In this document: one piece after another, positions 13,424-26,034 of the stretch
How positions within the stretch are numbered: position 1 is the first letter of the stretch
Layout: each line of letters opens with the position of its first letter
Source: an uncultured Magnetospirillum sp.
Lineage (GTDB): Bacteria; Pseudomonadota; Alphaproteobacteria; Rhodospirillales; Magnetospirillaceae
Assembly (NCBI RefSeq): GCF_903853455.1
Contig: NZ_CAINTR010000074.1
Span: 1-32,910, forward strand
Direction: 5' to 3'
DNA length: 32,910 nt
Translations under genes and position numbers: made by a program
The notes under the pieces: model-generated
The model's input: the letters and a program-made list of their open reading frames with translations, nothing else
What the model was told of the DNA's origin: nothing
Databases searched by the model: none

Positions 13424-14191
13424 ATGATCACCCTGTCCGCCTTGAACGATTTCAACCGCATCCGCCATGGGTTCTTCACCCGTGAAGGCGGCGTGTCGCA
13501 GGGCCTCTACGGCTCGCTGAACTGCGGCCCGGGATCCAAGGACGACCCGGCAGCGGTGCGGGAGAACCGGGGCCGCGCCATGGCCATGATGGACCTGCCG
13601 GTGGAATCGCTGGCGACGCTGTACCAGGCCCATACGGCCGACGTGGTGGTGGTCACCGAAGCCTGGCCGGCGGGGCAGTCGCCCACCGCCGACGCCATGG
13701 TCACCAACCGCCCCGGCATCGCTCTCGGCATCCTCACCGCCGATTGCGCGCCGGTGCTGCTGGCCGACGGCAAGGGCGGCGTGGTGGCGGCGGCCCATGC
13801 CGGCTGGAAGGGCGCCCTGGGCGGCGTGCTGGACAACACCGTCAAGGCCATGGTCGAACTGGGCGGCAAGACCGCCAACATGGTCGCCGCCATCGGGCCG
13901 TGCATCGGCCACCGCTCCTACGAGGTCGGGCCGGAATTCCCTGATCCCTTCCTGGCGGAAGACGCCCACAACATCGACTTCTTCGCGCCGTCGTCCCGGC
14001 CCGGTCACGCCCTGTTCGACCTGCCCGGCTACATCTCGCGCAAGCTGGCCCGGCTGGGCGTGATCGACGTGACGCGGGTGCCGGCCGACACCTGTCGCGA
14101 CGAGGCACGCTTCTTCAGCTATCGCCGCACCACGCTGCGGGGCGAGCCCGATTACGGCCGCCAACTCTCGGCGATCCTGCTGGACCGATGA
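13424..14191 (+). CDS. pgeF: Peptidoglycan editing factor PgeF (YfiH, multicopper polyphenol oxidoreductase fold)
   Basis: PgeF prevents or removes misincorporated amino acids (such as Ser for Ala) in peptidoglycan stem peptides; homologues were earlier called laccases. The 255-aa product carries the metal-site residues His70 (YQAHTADV), Cys108 (TADCAPV) and His125 (AHAGWKG). RHGFFTREGGVS is at the N-terminus, and GPCIG and DTCRDEARFFSYRR come later. It is probably cytoplasmic, with no signal peptide. It is the fourth and last gene of the hldD operon. A copy of the structured repeat element begins 12 bases after its stop. Confidence 0.93.
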   Translation: MITLSALNDFNRIRHGFFTREGGVSQGLYGSLNCGPGSKDDPAAVRENRGRAMAMMDLPVESLATLYQAHTADVVVVTEAWPAGQSPTADAMVTNRPGIALGILTADCAPVLLADGKGGVVAAAHAGWKGALGGVLDNTVKAMVELGGKTANMVAAIGPCIGHRSYEVGPEFPDPFLAEDAHNIDFFAPSSRPGHALFDLPGYISRKLARLGVIDVTRVPADTCRDEARFFSYRRTTLRGEPDYGRQLSAILLDR

Positions 14192-14202
14192 GAGCCTTTT
14201 TT

Positions 14203-14282
14203 GCCCCTCAAGCGCCGGGCGGCGAACTCCGTTCGCCTTGGCTTTCGCGCCATGGGGCGCGCCGGGCTTTGCCCGCAACTCC
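14203..14282 (-). repeat. Structured dispersed repeat, full copy A
   Basis: This is the complete copy in minus orientation. Read on the minus strand it has GGAGTTGC, a 5-bp hairpin with a 3-base loop (14263-14275), a 6-bp hairpin with a 4-base loop (14246-14261), the linker CGAAAGCCAA, a 7-bp hairpin with a 3-base loop (14221-14237), and a tail close to GCCCGGCGCTTGAGGGG. The same order of hairpins and linkers occurs at 25341-25420 with different stem bases. The copy ends directly at the ATG cluster of the following lipoprotein gene. Confidence 0.8.
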
Positions 14283-14288
14283 ATGGCA

Positions 14289-15158
14289 ATGAATAAATTC
14301 ATAGCCATGTCGGTTCTCCTGCCGCTTTTGCTGCTGCTGGCGGCCTGCGGCGACATTCCCCAGCCGTTCCGCCACGAGGGCACCAATCTGGCGCTGGCCC
14401 CGGCGGCGGCGCGCGGCGTCGAGGTCCGGCCGCTGGACGAGTCGCCGCGCTCGGCCCAGTTGGCAGCCGCCATCGTGCGCCGCCTGCTGGAGGAGGAGAT
14501 TCCCGCCTCCACCCGCGCGGTGGTGCCCGGCGCCTGGGTGCTCAGCGCCAGGGCCGAGCCCGCCGCCGGTGCGACCGTGCTGACCTGGACGCTGGCCCGT
14601 TCGGGCGGCGAGGCCCTGGGGGGGCTGGAGCAGAAGGTCCCGGCGGGACCTTGGGCGCGGGCCACCCCCAAGACCATCGACCTTATCGCCGCCGAAGTGG
14701 TGGACAAGCTGACGGGGCCGCTGCACGGCGACGGTCCCAAGACGGCCGCCGGAGTGGTGGCGCCGGTGATCCGGCTGCTGCCGCTGACGGGGCTGCCGGG
14801 CGACGGCGACACTGCCCTGGCCACGGCCATGCGGACCATGCTCAAGCGCGACGGCCTTACGGTGGTGGATGGCGAGGCGCCGGCCGACTTCCTGCTGCGC
14901 GGGCAAGTGACCCTGTCGCCCGGTCGTCCCGGCGAGGAGATGCTGGCGGTGGCCTGGACGGTGACCAGCCGGAGCGGCGAGGATCTCGGCACTTCGTCGC
15001 AGCAGGGGCCGGTGCCCAAGGGGCGGCTGGCCGGCCCTTGGGGCTCGCTGGCCAGCGACATCGCCGCCGGAGCCACCGACGGCATCGGCCAGATCCTTCG
15101 CGCCGCCGTGACGGCCAATGCCGGCGGCAAGGGCCTGGCTACGCCACCATCTCGATGA
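14289..15158 (+). CDS. Predicted outer-membrane or periplasmic lipoprotein, unknown function
   Basis: This lipoprotein of about 289 aa has a signal peptide MNKFIAMSVLLPLLLLLAAC whose lipobox LAAC puts the lipidated Cys at about residue 20. The rest is soluble and Ala/Gly-rich, with two similar-looking stretches (AAAIVRRLLEEEIPA and ATAMRTMLKRDGLTV) that may reflect a repeated fold. I do not recognise a family. In-frame ATGs are at 14283, 14289 and 14307. I chose 14289 because it gives a compact charged n-region. No Shine-Dalgarno is visible, because the repeat element ends immediately upstream. The 3' end overlaps the convergent VOC gene by 20 bases. Confidence 0.75.
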   Translation: MNKFIAMSVLLPLLLLLAACGDIPQPFRHEGTNLALAPAAARGVEVRPLDESPRSAQLAAAIVRRLLEEEIPASTRAVVPGAWVLSARAEPAAGATVLTWTLARSGGEALGGLEQKVPAGPWARATPKTIDLIAAEVVDKLTGPLHGDGPKTAAGVVAPVIRLLPLTGLPGDGDTALATAMRTMLKRDGLTVVDGEAPADFLLRGQVTLSPGRPGEEMLAVAWTVTSRSGEDLGTSSQQGPVPKGRLAGPWGSLASDIAAGATDGIGQILRAAVTANAGGKGLATPPSR

Positions 15159-15992: not shown

Positions 15993-16026
15993 GCGGGCGA
16001 GGCGCCCGCCCGGCGATTGAGGGACA
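15993..16026 (+). repeat. Structured dispersed repeat, partial copy D
   Basis: A 7-bp perfect hairpin GCGGGCG-AGG-CGCCCGC (15993-16009) is followed by the tail CCGGCGATTGAGGGACA. It corresponds to the last hairpin and tail of the full element, again with its own stem sequence. It lies in the gap between tyrA and the VOC gene. Confidence 0.65.
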
Positions 16027-22508: not shown

Positions 22509-22621
22509 CCCCTCGTCACTCCCGCGAAAGCGGGAGTCCATGGTGGGGGCGGCGATGAATTCGCCGTGGAAAGCTTGTTGCGCGGAGGCCTGGATTCCCG
22601 CTTTCGCGGGAATGACGAGGG
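22509..22621. repeat. Inverted pair of GAAA-capped palindromes (family CGTCATTCCCGCGAAAGCGGG)
   Basis: The left unit at 22509-22540 and right unit at 22591-22621 are inverted copies. Each holds a hairpin CCCGC-GAAA-GCGGG (or its complement). They differ at two places that pair with each other: the left stem ends ACTCCC/GGGAGT and the right one ATTCCC/GGGAAT. The roughly 50-base middle holds no gene. A second pair of this family is at 25150-25285. Confidence 0.8.
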
Positions 22622-22696: not shown

Positions 22697-22792
22697 GGGA
22701 GATCGGCGGTGGACGGATCGTTCGCCAACCCGGTCAGGTCCGGAAGGAAGCAGCCGTAACGATTTCCGGTTCGGGTCGCTGTCCGATCTCCC
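22697..22792 (+). ncRNA. ffs: Signal recognition particle RNA, small bacterial (4.5S) type
   Basis: This roughly 96-base RNA folds as one long hairpin: GGGAGATCGG (22697-22706) pairs with CCGATCTCCC (22783-22792). The conserved apical part GGTCAGGTCCGGAAGGAAGCAGCC (22732-22755; GGAA tetraloop and Ffh-binding internal loops) is unmistakable. It partners Ffh in co-translational membrane targeting. A pyrimidine-rich stretch (CCTTCTCTTCTGTTC) follows and may end transcription. The ffs-dnaX-ybaB-recR order is widespread in bacteria. Confidence 0.96.
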
Positions 22793-22840
22793 ACCTTCTC
22801 TTCTGTTCATAGCCTCAATCGCCAACGCTCGTTGGGCTTC

Positions 22841-23016: not shown

Positions 23017-24810
23017 ATGAGTGACAGCCCCGCCCCCGCTCCCTACCGCGTTCTGGCCCGCAAATACCGGCCGACCGACTTTTCCGGCCTGATCGGGCAG
23101 GACGCGCTGGTGCGCACCCTGTCCAACGCCATCCAGAGCGGGCGACTGGCCCATGCCTTCGTGCTCACGGGCGTGCGCGGTGTCGGCAAGACCACCACCG
23201 CCCGCATCATCGCGCGGGCGCTGAATTGCGTCGGGCTCGACGGCAAGGGCGGCCCCACCATCGACCCCTGCGGCGTGTGCGAGCATTGCCGCGCCATCGC
23301 CGAGGACCGCCACGTCGATGTGCTGGAGATGGACGCCGCCAGCCGCACCGGCGTCGATGGCATCCGCGAGCTGATCGAGAGCGTTCGCTATCGCCCGACC
23401 TCGGCCCGCTTCAAGATCTACATCATCGACGAAGTGCACATGCTGTCGACGGCGGCGTTCAACGCCCTGCTGAAGACCCTGGAAGAGCCGCCCGAGCACG
23501 TCAAATTCGTCTTCGCCACCACCGAGATCCGCAAGATTCCGGTCACCGTCCTGTCGCGCTGTCAGCGCTTCGACCTGCGCCGGGTCGAGATGGACGTGCT
23601 GGCCAAGCATTTCGCCGGCATCGCGGTCAAGGAGCAGGCCGAGATCGAGCCCGCCGCCCTGAGGCTGATCGCGCGGGCCGCCGACGGTTCGGTGCGCGAC
23701 GGCCTGTCGCTGCTGGATCAGGCCATCAGCCACGGCGCCGGTCTGGTGTCCGAGGCCCAGGTCCGCGACATGCTGGGACTGGCCGACCGGGCCCGCGTCT
23801 TCGACCTGCTGGACGCGGTGATGACGGGCGAGGTGGCCGGGGCGCTGGACCAGATCGCCGACCAATACGCCGCCGGCGCCGACCCGGCGGTGGTGTTGCA
23901 GGACATGCTGGAGCTGGTCCACTGGCTGACCCGGCTCAAGGTCACCCCCGACGCCGCCGACGCCACCACCGTGTCCGAGACCGAGCGGGTCAAGGGCCGC
24001 CAGATGGCCGACGGGCTGTCGCTGGCCGCCCTGACCCGCGCTTGGCAGATGCTGCTGAAGGGCCTGGGCGAGACCCGCTCCGCTCCCAATCCGTTGCAGG
24101 CGGCCGAGATGGCGGTGGTGCGCCTCGCCTATGCCGCCGAGTTGCCCACCCCGGCCGAACTGGTGGAGCAACTGCGCTCCAACCCGCCGCCGGCGCCCCG
24201 TGGTCCCGGTGGCGGCGGGGGAGGAAGCGGCTTTGTCGGCGGCGTGGCCGATGCGGTCTCCGGCCATCATACCGGCGGCAACGGTGGGATAGGTGGTGGG
24301 GGGGGCGGCGCCACCGCTCTCAAGATGCAGCCGGCTTTCGTGGCGCCGCCGGTGCAACTGCCGGCCATGCCCGCCGGCTTCGCCGAGGTGGCGGCGCTGT
24401 TCGCCGACAAGCGCGAGGGCATCATCGCCATGCAGCTGCGCACCCAGGTCAACCTGGTGTCGTTCGAGGCCGGTCGGATCGAGTGGCGCCAGCACGGCAC
24501 CGCCAACGCCGACCTTCCCCCCAAGGTGGCGCGGCTGCTGTCGGAATGGACCGGCCGGCGCTGGACGGTGTCGCTCAATTCCTCCGATCCGGCCCAGCCG
24601 ACCCTGACCGAGCAGGAGGCCGGCGCCGAGCTGCGCCGCCGTCAGGACGCCGCCGAGCATCCCCTGGTCAAGGCGGTGCTGGCCGCCTTCCCCGACGCCG
24701 CCATCGAGGCGGTGCGCGAGTTGGAGCCCGAGGCGCCGCCGGAACCCCTGGCCGAGTATTTCGACCCGTCGCTCGACGGCGAGATGTTTCCTGGAGAAGA
24801 AGACCTATGA
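23017..24810 (+). CDS. dnaX: DNA polymerase III subunit tau (gamma/tau)
   Basis: DnaX is the clamp-loader ATPase that also links polymerase cores in the replisome. The product is 597 aa. Walker A GVRGVGKTT is at about 52-60. The zinc-binding Cys are C71, C85, C88 and C91. Walker B is IIDEVHM and sensor 1 is TVLSRCQRFDLRR. The AAA+ lid and collar domains extend to about 375. A Gly-rich linker (about 390-435) then leads to the tau-specific C-terminal domain. The linker DNA has eight G in a row (24298-24305), a possible slippage site, but no short gamma product is obvious. ybaB overlaps by 4 bases. Confidence 0.96.
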   Translation: MSDSPAPAPYRVLARKYRPTDFSGLIGQDALVRTLSNAIQSGRLAHAFVLTGVRGVGKTTTARIIARALNCVGLDGKGGPTIDPCGVCEHCRAIAEDRHVDVLEMDAASRTGVDGIRELIESVRYRPTSARFKIYIIDEVHMLSTAAFNALLKTLEEPPEHVKFVFATTEIRKIPVTVLSRCQRFDLRRVEMDVLAKHFAGIAVKEQAEIEPAALRLIARAADGSVRDGLSLLDQAISHGAGLVSEAQVRDMLGLADRARVFDLLDAVMTGEVAGALDQIADQYAAGADPAVVLQDMLELVHWLTRLKVTPDAADATTVSETERVKGRQMADGLSLAALTRAWQMLLKGLGETRSAPNPLQAAEMAVVRLAYAAELPTPAELVEQLRSNPPPAPRGPGGGGGGSGFVGGVADAVSGHHTGGNGGIGGGGGGATALKMQPAFVAPPVQLPAMPAGFAEVAALFADKREGIIAMQLRTQVNLVSFEAGRIEWRQHGTANADLPPKVARLLSEWTGRRWTVSLNSSDPAQPTLTEQEAGAELRRRQDAAEHPLVKAVLAAFPDAAIEAVRELEPEAPPEPLAEYFDPSLDGEMFPGEEDL

Positions 24811-25130
24811 AGAACCTTGGGAATTTGATGAAGCAGGCCTCGCAGATGCAGGCCAAGATGACCGAGATGCAGGCCAAGATGCAGGAGATCGAGGTCACCG
24901 GCGCCGCCGGGGCCGGCATGCTCCAGGTCACGCTGAATGGCAAGTTCGAGATGAAGAAGGTCAAGATCGACAAGTCGCTGATGGTTCCCGACGACGTCGA
25001 GGTGCTGGAAGACCTGCTGCTGGCCGCCTTCAACGACGCCAAGGGCAAGGCCGAACTCCTGATGCAGGAGGAAATGGCCAAGCTGACCGGCGGCCTCAGC
25101 CTGCCCGAGGGGTTCAAGCTGCCGTTCTGA
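24807..25130 (+). CDS. YbaB/EbfC family nucleoid-associated protein
   Basis: This 107-aa protein begins MKNLGNLMKQASQMQAKM, the family's amphipathic helix, and continues with IEVTGAAGAGMLQVTLNGKFEMKKVKID. It ends in GLSLPEGFKLPF, the normal family C-terminus. YbaB/EbfC proteins form dimers that bind DNA with low sequence preference. The gene overlaps dnaX by 4 bases and precedes recR, the usual order; co-expression with recombination and replication genes is inferred from that. Confidence 0.94.
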   Translation: MKNLGNLMKQASQMQAKMTEMQAKMQEIEVTGAAGAGMLQVTLNGKFEMKKVKIDKSLMVPDDVEVLEDLLLAAFNDAKGKAELLMQEEMAKLTGGLSLPEGFKLPF

Positions 25131-25149: not shown

Positions 25150-25285
25150 CGTCATTCCCGCGAAAGCGGGGGCCGAAGGGAACGCGGAGCGGACAATCCA
25201 TGGGGCGGGCGGCGAAATCTCAAGGACTGGGCCGAGGCTTTGGCCTGGCATGGACCCCCGCTTTCGCGGGGGTGACGAGGTGAGT
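25150..25285. repeat. Inverted pair of GAAA-capped palindromes, second locus
   Basis: CGTCATTCCCGCGAAAGCGG at 25150-25169 faces the reverse form ATGGACCCCCGCTTTCGCGG at 25249-25268, which continues GGGTGACGAGGTGAG. It is the same family as 22509-22621, again straddling a short gene-free spacer just after a gene (ybaB). This pair and the structured repeats that follow fill the 310 bases between ybaB and recR. Confidence 0.75.
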
Positions 25286-25291
25286 GAGGGC

Positions 25292-25318
25292 CGCATCCCG
25301 CCCGGCGATTGAGGGACA
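25292..25318 (+). repeat. Structured dispersed repeat, truncated copy C
   Basis: CGCATCCCGCCCGG and GCGATTGAGGGACA match the second half of the last hairpin plus the tail of the full element 3' of it. The preceding bases cannot form the hairpin. The copy appears cut at the hairpin loop, next to the palindrome pair that ends at 25285. Confidence 0.6.
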
Positions 25319-25340
25319 CGAATCGACGAGCCCGAGGCGA

Positions 25341-25420
25341 GGAGTTGCGGCCAAAGGCCGGCGCCGCTCATGCGGCGAAAGCCAAGGGATGCGGAACGCA
25401 TCCCGCCCGGCGCCTGAGGG
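25341..25420 (+). repeat. Structured dispersed repeat, full copy B
   Basis: GGAGTTGC (25341-25348) is followed by hairpin CGGCC-AAA-GGCCG (25348-25360), hairpin CGCCGC-TCAT-GCGGCG (25362-25377), the linker AAAGCCAA, hairpin GGGATGCG-GAA-CGCATCCC (25386-25404) and the tail GCCCGGCGCCTGAGGGA. All three stems are perfect. Compared with copy A at 14203-14282, the stems differ in sequence but keep pairing, while the linkers are the same. It ends about 20 bases before the recR start. Confidence 0.8.
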
Positions 25421-25440: not shown

Positions 25441-26034
25441 ATGGTCGGACCCGAGATCGAGCGCCTGATACAACTCCTTTCGCGGTTGCCGGGGCTGGGG
25501 CCGCGCTCGGCCCGGCGCGCCGCCCTGCGTCTGGTGGAAAGGCGGGAAACCCTGCTGATCCCCCTGGGCGCGGCTATGACCGAGGCGGCGGCCAAGGTCA
25601 AGACCTGCTCGGTCTGCGGCAATTTCGACACCATCGACCCCTGCGCCATCTGCTGCGACCCTCGCCGCGACGCCGCGCTGCTCTGCGTGGTCGAGGACGT
25701 GGCCGGGCTGTGGGCCATGGAGCGCACCGGCAGCTTCAAGGGCCGCTACGCCGTGCTGGGCGGGTTGCTGTCGGCCTTGGACGGGGTAGGGCCGGAGGAT
25801 ATCGGCATCGCCCGGCTGGTGGAGCGCGCCCGCGACCCGGCGGTCAAGGAAGTGATCCTGGCCACCCCCGCCACGGTGGAGGGCCAGACCACCGCCCACT
25901 ACGTCGCCGACCGGCTGGCCGATTGCGACGTGTCGGTCACCGGCCTCGCCCATGGCGTGCCGGTGGGTGGCGAACTGGACCACCTGGACGACGGCACCAT
26001 CACCGCGGCGCTACGGGCGCGGCGGAGTTTCTGA
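25441..26034 (+). CDS. recR: Recombination mediator RecR
   Basis: RecR acts with RecF/RecO to load RecA on single-stranded gaps. The product is 197 aa. A helix-hairpin-helix region [19 protein letters not shown] comes first. A C4 zinc finger follows with C56, C59, C68 and C71 ([16 protein letters not shown]). The Toprim domain starts [35 protein letters not shown] and a [15 protein letters not shown] Walker-like C-terminus follow. The frame is open upstream through repeat DNA, but ATG 25441 gives the canonical N-terminus. No clear Shine-Dalgarno is present; the AAATAAC-like AT-rich sequence before it follows the repeat tail. Confidence 0.95.

Follow-up and report, generated by a model that had tools for sequence, protein, structure and literature searches.

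The window analysed here, a stretch of 32,910 nucleotides from an uncultured Magnetospirillum sp., holds two copies, A and B, of a hairpin-rich element. What kind of element keeps its stems paired and not their letters, and how is it tolerated at the joints between genes? Both copies lie where the sequence-only reading had placed them (Table 1), and its description of them is borne out: the linkers are common to A and B, the three stems of one copy are unlike those of the other, and all six stems pair. Copy A, read on the minus strand, runs GGAGTTGC, GGGC/GCCC, CGCGCC/GGCGCG, AAAGCCAA, GGCGAAC/GTTCGCC and GCCCGGCGCTTGAGGG; copy B, on the plus strand, runs GGAGTTGC, GGCC/GGCC, CGCCGC/GCGGCG, AAAGCCAA, GGGATGCG/CGCATCCC and GCCCGGCGCCTGAGGG. 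Because copy A has an extra hairpin 5' of GGAGTTGC, the element is longer than 80 bases; with this hairpin 0 and the A-rich end included, it spans about 14192-14309. Element-sized stretches fold with z scores of -3.46 (copy A) and -2.57 (copy B), and other stretches of the same copies with -1.25 and -2.20, the score depending on the stretch folded. Copy A is antisense to both neighbouring genes, and the 34-codon frame through it has no Pfam match. Copy B lies in a joint of 313 nt that has no bridging frame. As separate observations, CGTC-type repeats (GTCATTCCCGCGAAAGCGGG...) are present at 22510-22542, 22591-22621 and approximately 25154-25280, one pair being immediately 5' of copy B, and the small SRP RNA (RF00169) is located at 22697-22795 on the plus strand.

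Table 1. Copies of the element and their neighbours in the window
Feature	Position	Strand	Basis or remark
Copy A core: GGAGTTGC, hairpins 1-3, AAAGCCAA linker, tail	14203..14282	-	sequence and fold
Hairpin 0 of copy A, 5' of GGAGTTGC	14282..14309	-	fold: 11 pairs, one mismatch
A-rich 3' end of copy A, beyond the tail	14192..14202	-	sequence
34-codon frame antisense through copy A	14188..14292	+	start overlaps pgeF stop (ATGA), stop overlaps next ATG (ATGA)
Copy B core	25341..25420	+	sequence and fold
Short hairpin 0 of copy B, GCC-CGA-GGC within CGACGAGCCCGAGGCGA	25324..25340	+	read from sequence
Reduced copy 5' of copy B: right arm of hairpin 3 and tail	25292..25318	+	
Reduced copy: 5-bp hairpin 3 and tail alone	15995..16023	+	
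PgeF family gene (TIGR00726), adjoining copy A	13424..14191	+	family match
Gene adjoining copy A, without family match	14289..15158	+	
YbaB/EbfC gene, before copy B	24807..25130	+	family match
recR, after copy B	25441..26034	+	family match

Four copies had been counted in the window. The 15-base tail pattern does have four exact matches (14205 on the minus strand; 16009, 25301 and 25406 on the plus strand), two of which belong to reduced copies. A loose tail pattern (at most two mismatches) is not commoner in the window alone than in its shuffles (8 vs 5.9), so that the decision against chance falls to the genome-wide search. In the genome of the window (5.18 Mb, hereafter G000; other G numbers are related genomes, and L numbers are loci read), the 16-base tail pattern GCCCGGCGNYTGAGGG has 163 exact matches, 87 forward and 76 reverse, and the reversed pattern has none; the individual copies read are the listed part of these 163. 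Copies A and B are not due to chance. They are members of a modular hairpin family, bigger than had been reported, and the many copies that the sequence-only reading had asked to be searched for do have paired stems.

We then present an overall view of the family in related genomes. Of 60 genomes, counting G000, 38 contain the tail, and none of the 16 other members of the genus lacks it; copy numbers per genome range from 0 to 163, and the control count is 0. The longer pattern GCCAAG-N10-22-tail is present in 21 of 289 genomes drawn from Alphaproteobacteria. A draw of 299 from the phylum gave 8 genomes with the pattern, every one of them within Alphaproteobacteria; counted by hand from the rows, about 213 genomes outside this class in the phylum draw have none. 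Among the matches listed are Azospirillum sp. RU38E (101), Paramagnetospirillum kuznetsovii (61), Nitrospirillum viridazoti (49), Telmatospirillum siberiense (49), Falsiroseomonas stagni (19), Sphingomonas sp. Root710 (14), Magnetospirillum fulvum (13), Azospirillum endophyticum (10), Oleisolibacter albus (10) and Erythrobacter dokdonensis (4). Judged by these pattern matches, the hairpin family is scattered through Alphaproteobacteria. Copy B has no match among the plasmids of PLSDB or the phages of INPHARED, nor has the peptide of the coding type described below in PLSDB. The element pattern matches 40 IMG/VR stretches, one of which (IMGVR_UViG_2708742415_000004) has a match spacing identical to that of a contig of Azospirillum sp. 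RU38E.

The three hairpins first described do exist in copies A and B as paired stems; on the whole, however, they are only one module set of a mosaic. The commonest type consists of hairpin 0 (often after ATACCGA), GGAGTTGC or GGAGGCAAGG, hairpins 1 and 2, AAAGCCAA, hairpin 3, GCCCGGCGNYTGAGGG and an A-rich end, and in some copies a further hairpin at the right end closes with GGTAT. The loops are mostly AAA or AAG in hairpin 1, for example TCAT, TCGT or ACAT in hairpin 2, and mostly GGA or GGAN in hairpin 3, the stem of which mostly has 6-8 bp. The stems are unlike in copies of other orders, which retain AAGCCAAG and the tail, both required by the search pattern itself, as well as the GGAN loop. 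Modules are absent from L007, L041, L064 and L066 and in tandem in L079, L114 and L116. A nested two-hairpin insert occurs in eight own copies, by hand reading in hairpin 1 or 2 of seven and in the coding type of one, the stretches read being element-centred. Not every member folds better than its shuffles: one coding variant, L063 (z +0.15), and one Nitrospirillum copy, L133 (z -0.40), do not. A modular build is known from BOX elements. In addition, a few observations were made beside the family itself. Tandem arrays with four-hairpin units of about 108 bases are seen in L089, L114 and L116 (IMGVR_UViG_2708742415_000004, listed as viral). A related shorter repeat, found near 144 on the plus strand of L015 and near 690 on the minus strand of L068, consists of a ATACCGGCGAA hairpin, a CAGCCGCCATTGCGGCGGC hairpin, GGCCAAG, a hairpin and CGCCCGGCGAGGGGC. 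The start of L022 and the end of L066, two contig ends, have a common stretch that resembles an insertion sequence end and lies inside or beside elements.

The pairing of the stems is the most regular property of the family. In G000, 76 of 98 own tails yielded a parsed hairpin 3 and 22 did not; the pattern behind the set of 75 copies demands C before the tail and excludes one own copy, which has a broken stem 3. These 75 copies reduce to 35 distinct sequences, whose left arms are of 20 kinds. Each of the 35 is paired over its five inner pairs; re-dealing the right arms leaves 47% of cells paired (maximum 60%). The other genomes give 96 distinct hairpins 3 with 94% paired, 74 of them perfect over five pairs and 22 imperfect; with one copy per locus, 93 distinct hairpins are 94% paired against 49% re-dealt. 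Sliding the partners by one or two bases leaves at most 44% paired in G000 and 47% elsewhere. Since related copies are not independent, these comparisons serve as descriptive controls. The claim of compensated stems between constant linkers thus holds on a much larger set, the linkers being nearly fixed. Hairpin 2 is found in 58 of the 75 own copies, compared with 5 of 75 shuffled, and in 94 of 162 copies of other genomes. Favoured stems tend to be genome-specific, and stems pair whichever way the copies face. Linkage between the hairpins of a copy is not significant in G000, being reached by 61 of 500 shuffles (n=58) and by 151, 183 and 195 of 2000 (n=33), but is reached by only 2 of 500 in the mixed set of other genomes; for this reason, free exchange of hairpins is not claimed. 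At the joint before RdgB, where the upstream gene is one that we take to be RNase PH, G000 has GGGGCC/GGCCCC and its relative G014 has GGGGTC/GACCCC; the whole upstream hairpin is also unlike, and all are paired. The difference possibly reflects replacement by another copy.

The sites of the copies vary among relatives. The pgeF joint of copy A is filled in 1 of 30 loci, that of G000 alone, and the recR joint of copy B in 3 of 30, namely G000, G011 (two copies with a variant tail) and G005 (inverted). When 99 G000 tails are compared with 800 kb of G011, both flanks are present for 22, which make 17 distinct sites. By hand reading, 13 of these are without a recognisable copy, two hold decayed copies (L009, L073) and two hold different copies; the flanks of L003 are just 70-72% alike, and L074 may retain a trace. 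The two with different copies are recR and the L069 joint, which carries tandem sets of other element types in each species. That relatives are mostly without copies at the same sites shows that the copies are insertions. The RdgB joint is filled in G000 and G014, and G011 has a shrunken element with an open frame there; among the 10 other genus members without the element, 7 show a single ATGA (hand reading). The G000 element has ATGA on both sides against one ATGA in the empty sites, a repeat based on few sites such as this one, with relatives too distant to fix the ends. In a check for terminal inverted repeats, we find left ends like ATACCGACGA and some right ends GGTAT, one or both being absent in many copies.

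With gene calls from a codon-based caller made for this analysis, both neighbours are called for 94 tails (5 of the 94 still being called inside a gene). Among them, 49 tails point the same way as co-directional genes and 15 the opposite way, 22 are convergent and 8 divergent; without the coding type, the numbers for co-directional genes are 36 and 15. For most co-directional and convergent tails, no more than about 25 nt separates the tail end from the following start or stop. Of 101 own tails, 26 have an ATG at precisely +9 after GAGGG, 22 of these with an open frame of 100 codons or more; shuffles give 1.2 per offset. The corresponding figures for other genomes are 12 of 183 (8 open) and 2.1. 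The GAGG of the tail is, by its letters, Shine-Dalgarno-like. In ordinary G000 genes, GAGG ending 10 nt before ATG is rare (2 of 46 occurrences), and the spacing is at the long end for the genome.

Frames that run through the element are most pronounced in one variant, the coding type (CGGAGCGNAGCGGAGGAGCCAAG), which is present in 12 of the 60 genomes, G000 included, and is restricted to this genus. Its frame starts on an overlap with the upstream stop and stops on an overlap with the next ATG. Of 17 candidates in G000, 14 have a small frame ending on the ATGA of the next gene or unit; these frames include one of 50 aa, in a copy with the nested insert, and two of 25 aa, in shortened copies. 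The remaining three are L023, which runs into a gene, and L032 and L077, which are wrongly labelled coding type, type labels being assigned by regular expression and rough. Outside G000, 26 copies were read, 15 of which have an NTGA start and an ATGA end; the TGA of that start also closes an upstream open frame of 146 codons or more in 13 of these 15, and in one, L348, the next frame has just 53 codons. (An automated count, which took any NTGA as the end, gave 12 in G000 and 16 elsewhere and included L021, which is bridged by a different frame, and L356; for the other genomes 15 is used.) Four of the 26 (L346, L349 and L363 twice) form an in-frame fusion with the following gene or unit; the fused copies L346 (in G016) and L349 (in G013) have the same downstream protein, and L363 (in G008) has repeated units. 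The others are L352, open at a contig end, L341 and L361, which end on ATGA with no start in view, and the broken copies, namely L356, which stops in its own tail, and L344, L350 and L353, which have an in-frame TAG. Stem and spacer lengths depart from the usual 16 + 9 in L343, L354, L358 and L359, which keep the frame nevertheless, and in L341 and L356, which do not.

Bridging, meaning a frame whose stop shares bases with the following start, is also countable over all co-directional joints with an element in G000. It is seen in 19 of 58, against a mean of 7.1 (maximum 14) for shuffled interiors and 5 and 5 joints for the two frame shifts; joints that lack the element give 4 of 39. The other 39 of the 58 element joints are unbridged, copy B among them. 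With the coding type set aside, 11 of 47 joints are bridged, including that of copy A, against 4.6 in shuffles, a modest excess that is reached by 1 of 300 shuffle sets.

In agreement with the sequence-only reading, Rfam and the literature searched gave no described repeat that matches the family. No Rfam 15 family reaches its gathering score, the best sub-threshold match being at copy B (14.7 bits vs 95.4 needed), and the reading as a known RNA family was rejected on this lack of a match. The tail strings and the description of the family were not found in the literature searched, most subscription journals lying outside its coverage. The excerpts of PMC3733652 describe CGTC- and GTAG-tagged palindromic repeats, the former predominantly in Alphaproteobacteria and without a known transposase; these REPs are short, palindromic and intergenic, near and between genes, as the present element is. 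The CGTC-tagged REP is described there as a single hairpin of 8-9 bp with terminal CGTC, a loop of 4-5 nt and a CCA tail. The present element, by contrast, consists of several hairpins in a row, joined by long fixed linkers, and has a mostly 6-8 bp hairpin 3 with a GGA or GGAN loop and a TGAGGG tail; the copies read have GGAG, not GTAG, before the core. Rickettsia palindromic elements, as presented in the excerpts of PMC10969869, are likewise alphaproteobacterial, can stay open and are fused to genes in frame; the coding type also keeps its frame open through the element. They insert within genes, however, and the present family, which mainly bridges stop/start overlaps and is only exceptionally fused (4 of 26 copies outside G000), is set apart from them by this description. 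The enterobacterial RU-1, RU-2 and RU-3 (about 100-170 bp) are MITE-like, with open frames and in-frame gene fusion, and stop/start bridging and free stems between fixed linkers are undescribed in the excerpts of PMC2759123, which sets them apart by description. The BOX elements of Streptococcus pneumoniae, mentioned in the excerpts of PMC10969869, are likened by description as intergenic structured repeats of another host group. We file the hairpin family as a variant among the miniature palindromic elements.

Structure kept in either orientation, sites present or absent, tandem growth and nesting argue for a mobile element handled as a folded strand. Our preferred reading, which we hold as somewhat probable, is that A and B belong to a non-autonomous mobile element, a chain of hairpins handled as a folded strand and tolerated in operons because translation continues. 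An enzyme supplied in trans would handle the element as a folded single strand, recognising the linkers by sequence and the hairpins by shape, so that the stems might change provided that they pair. An insert entering a stop/start overlap, for example ATGA, would repeat those bases and both genes would thereby stay whole. The tail (TGAGGG, 9 nt, ATG) could serve as a Shine-Dalgarno site for the next gene; owing to this site, and to an insert that is open in the frame handing on the ribosome, copies would persist in operons.

A selected RNA had been proposed instead. The structured family with compensated stems stands, and an RNA is not the reading we prefer, because sites are empty in relatives, copies face both ways and pairing holds in either orientation. 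In its specific form, hairpins selected in the transcript would protect the upstream mRNA end or gate the tail as the ribosome-binding site of the next gene. The excess of tails facing the same way as co-directional genes (49 vs 15), which persists without the coding type, the scarcity of divergent cases (8 of 94) and the ATG at +9 would fit such a cis-acting element; yet 45 of the 94 tails are outside the same-direction setting and all distinct own stems still pair, and neither the empty sites nor copy numbers from 0 to 163 among 60 relatives agree with it, so we consider it unlikely. A separate small RNA gene, repeated across the genome, would explain a compact structured unit with conserved unpaired motifs, but copies abut both neighbouring genes with little room for a promoter, sites and copy numbers vary, and Rfam has no match, all of which makes this reading hardly credible.

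Two other alternatives concern how the DNA itself is copied. Template switching, arm conversion or copying of hairpins from other copies might keep stems perfect without selection on shape. GC-rich perfect hairpins, tandem and nested copies, and the whole hairpins that differ between G000 and G014 at the RdgB joint, where the types that take their place are present elsewhere in the genome, speak for such a mutational process; by itself, it leaves the constancy of linkers and loops across orders unexplained, and we regard it as rather improbable. A REP-type element moved by a tyrosine transposase of the IS200/RAYT type would likewise be short, palindromic, intergenic and present in many copies. 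The survey for Y1_Tnp (PF01797), the transposase family covered, finds no match in G000, nor in G001, G011, G021 and G040 despite their 155, 74, 85 and 42 tails, and finds one in eight genomes without tails (G037, G039, G041, G043, G044, G045, G047 and G051) as well as in G014 (84 tails), G013 (56) and G038 (26); tail-rich G024, G032, G034 and G035 were left out of it. A mover of this type, missing from G000 and not tracking copy number in the relatives surveyed, is thus disfavoured, and we hold the REP reading to be very improbable.

A wider form of the preferred reading of a mobile element handled as a folded strand can be put forward tentatively, as possible rather than probable. The family may be a class-wide alphaproteobacterial mobile element kept partly by shape, which in one genus has become a translation-transparent insert: it would enter a four-base stop/start overlap, repeat it, bring a Shine-Dalgarno site and hand the ribosome on via its own frame. 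The copies may also account for the short predicted proteins and the N-terminal extensions (MSE...RPGAQRRSQ..., RPALEGHKQ) of these genomes. An insertion between tightly coupled genes of an operon should break translational coupling, and this repeat looks built to avoid that; several species of one genus offer natural replicates of it at many gene joints. The repeat makes two questions accessible to testing, how a DNA element is kept by shape and not by sequence, and how operons tolerate insertions.
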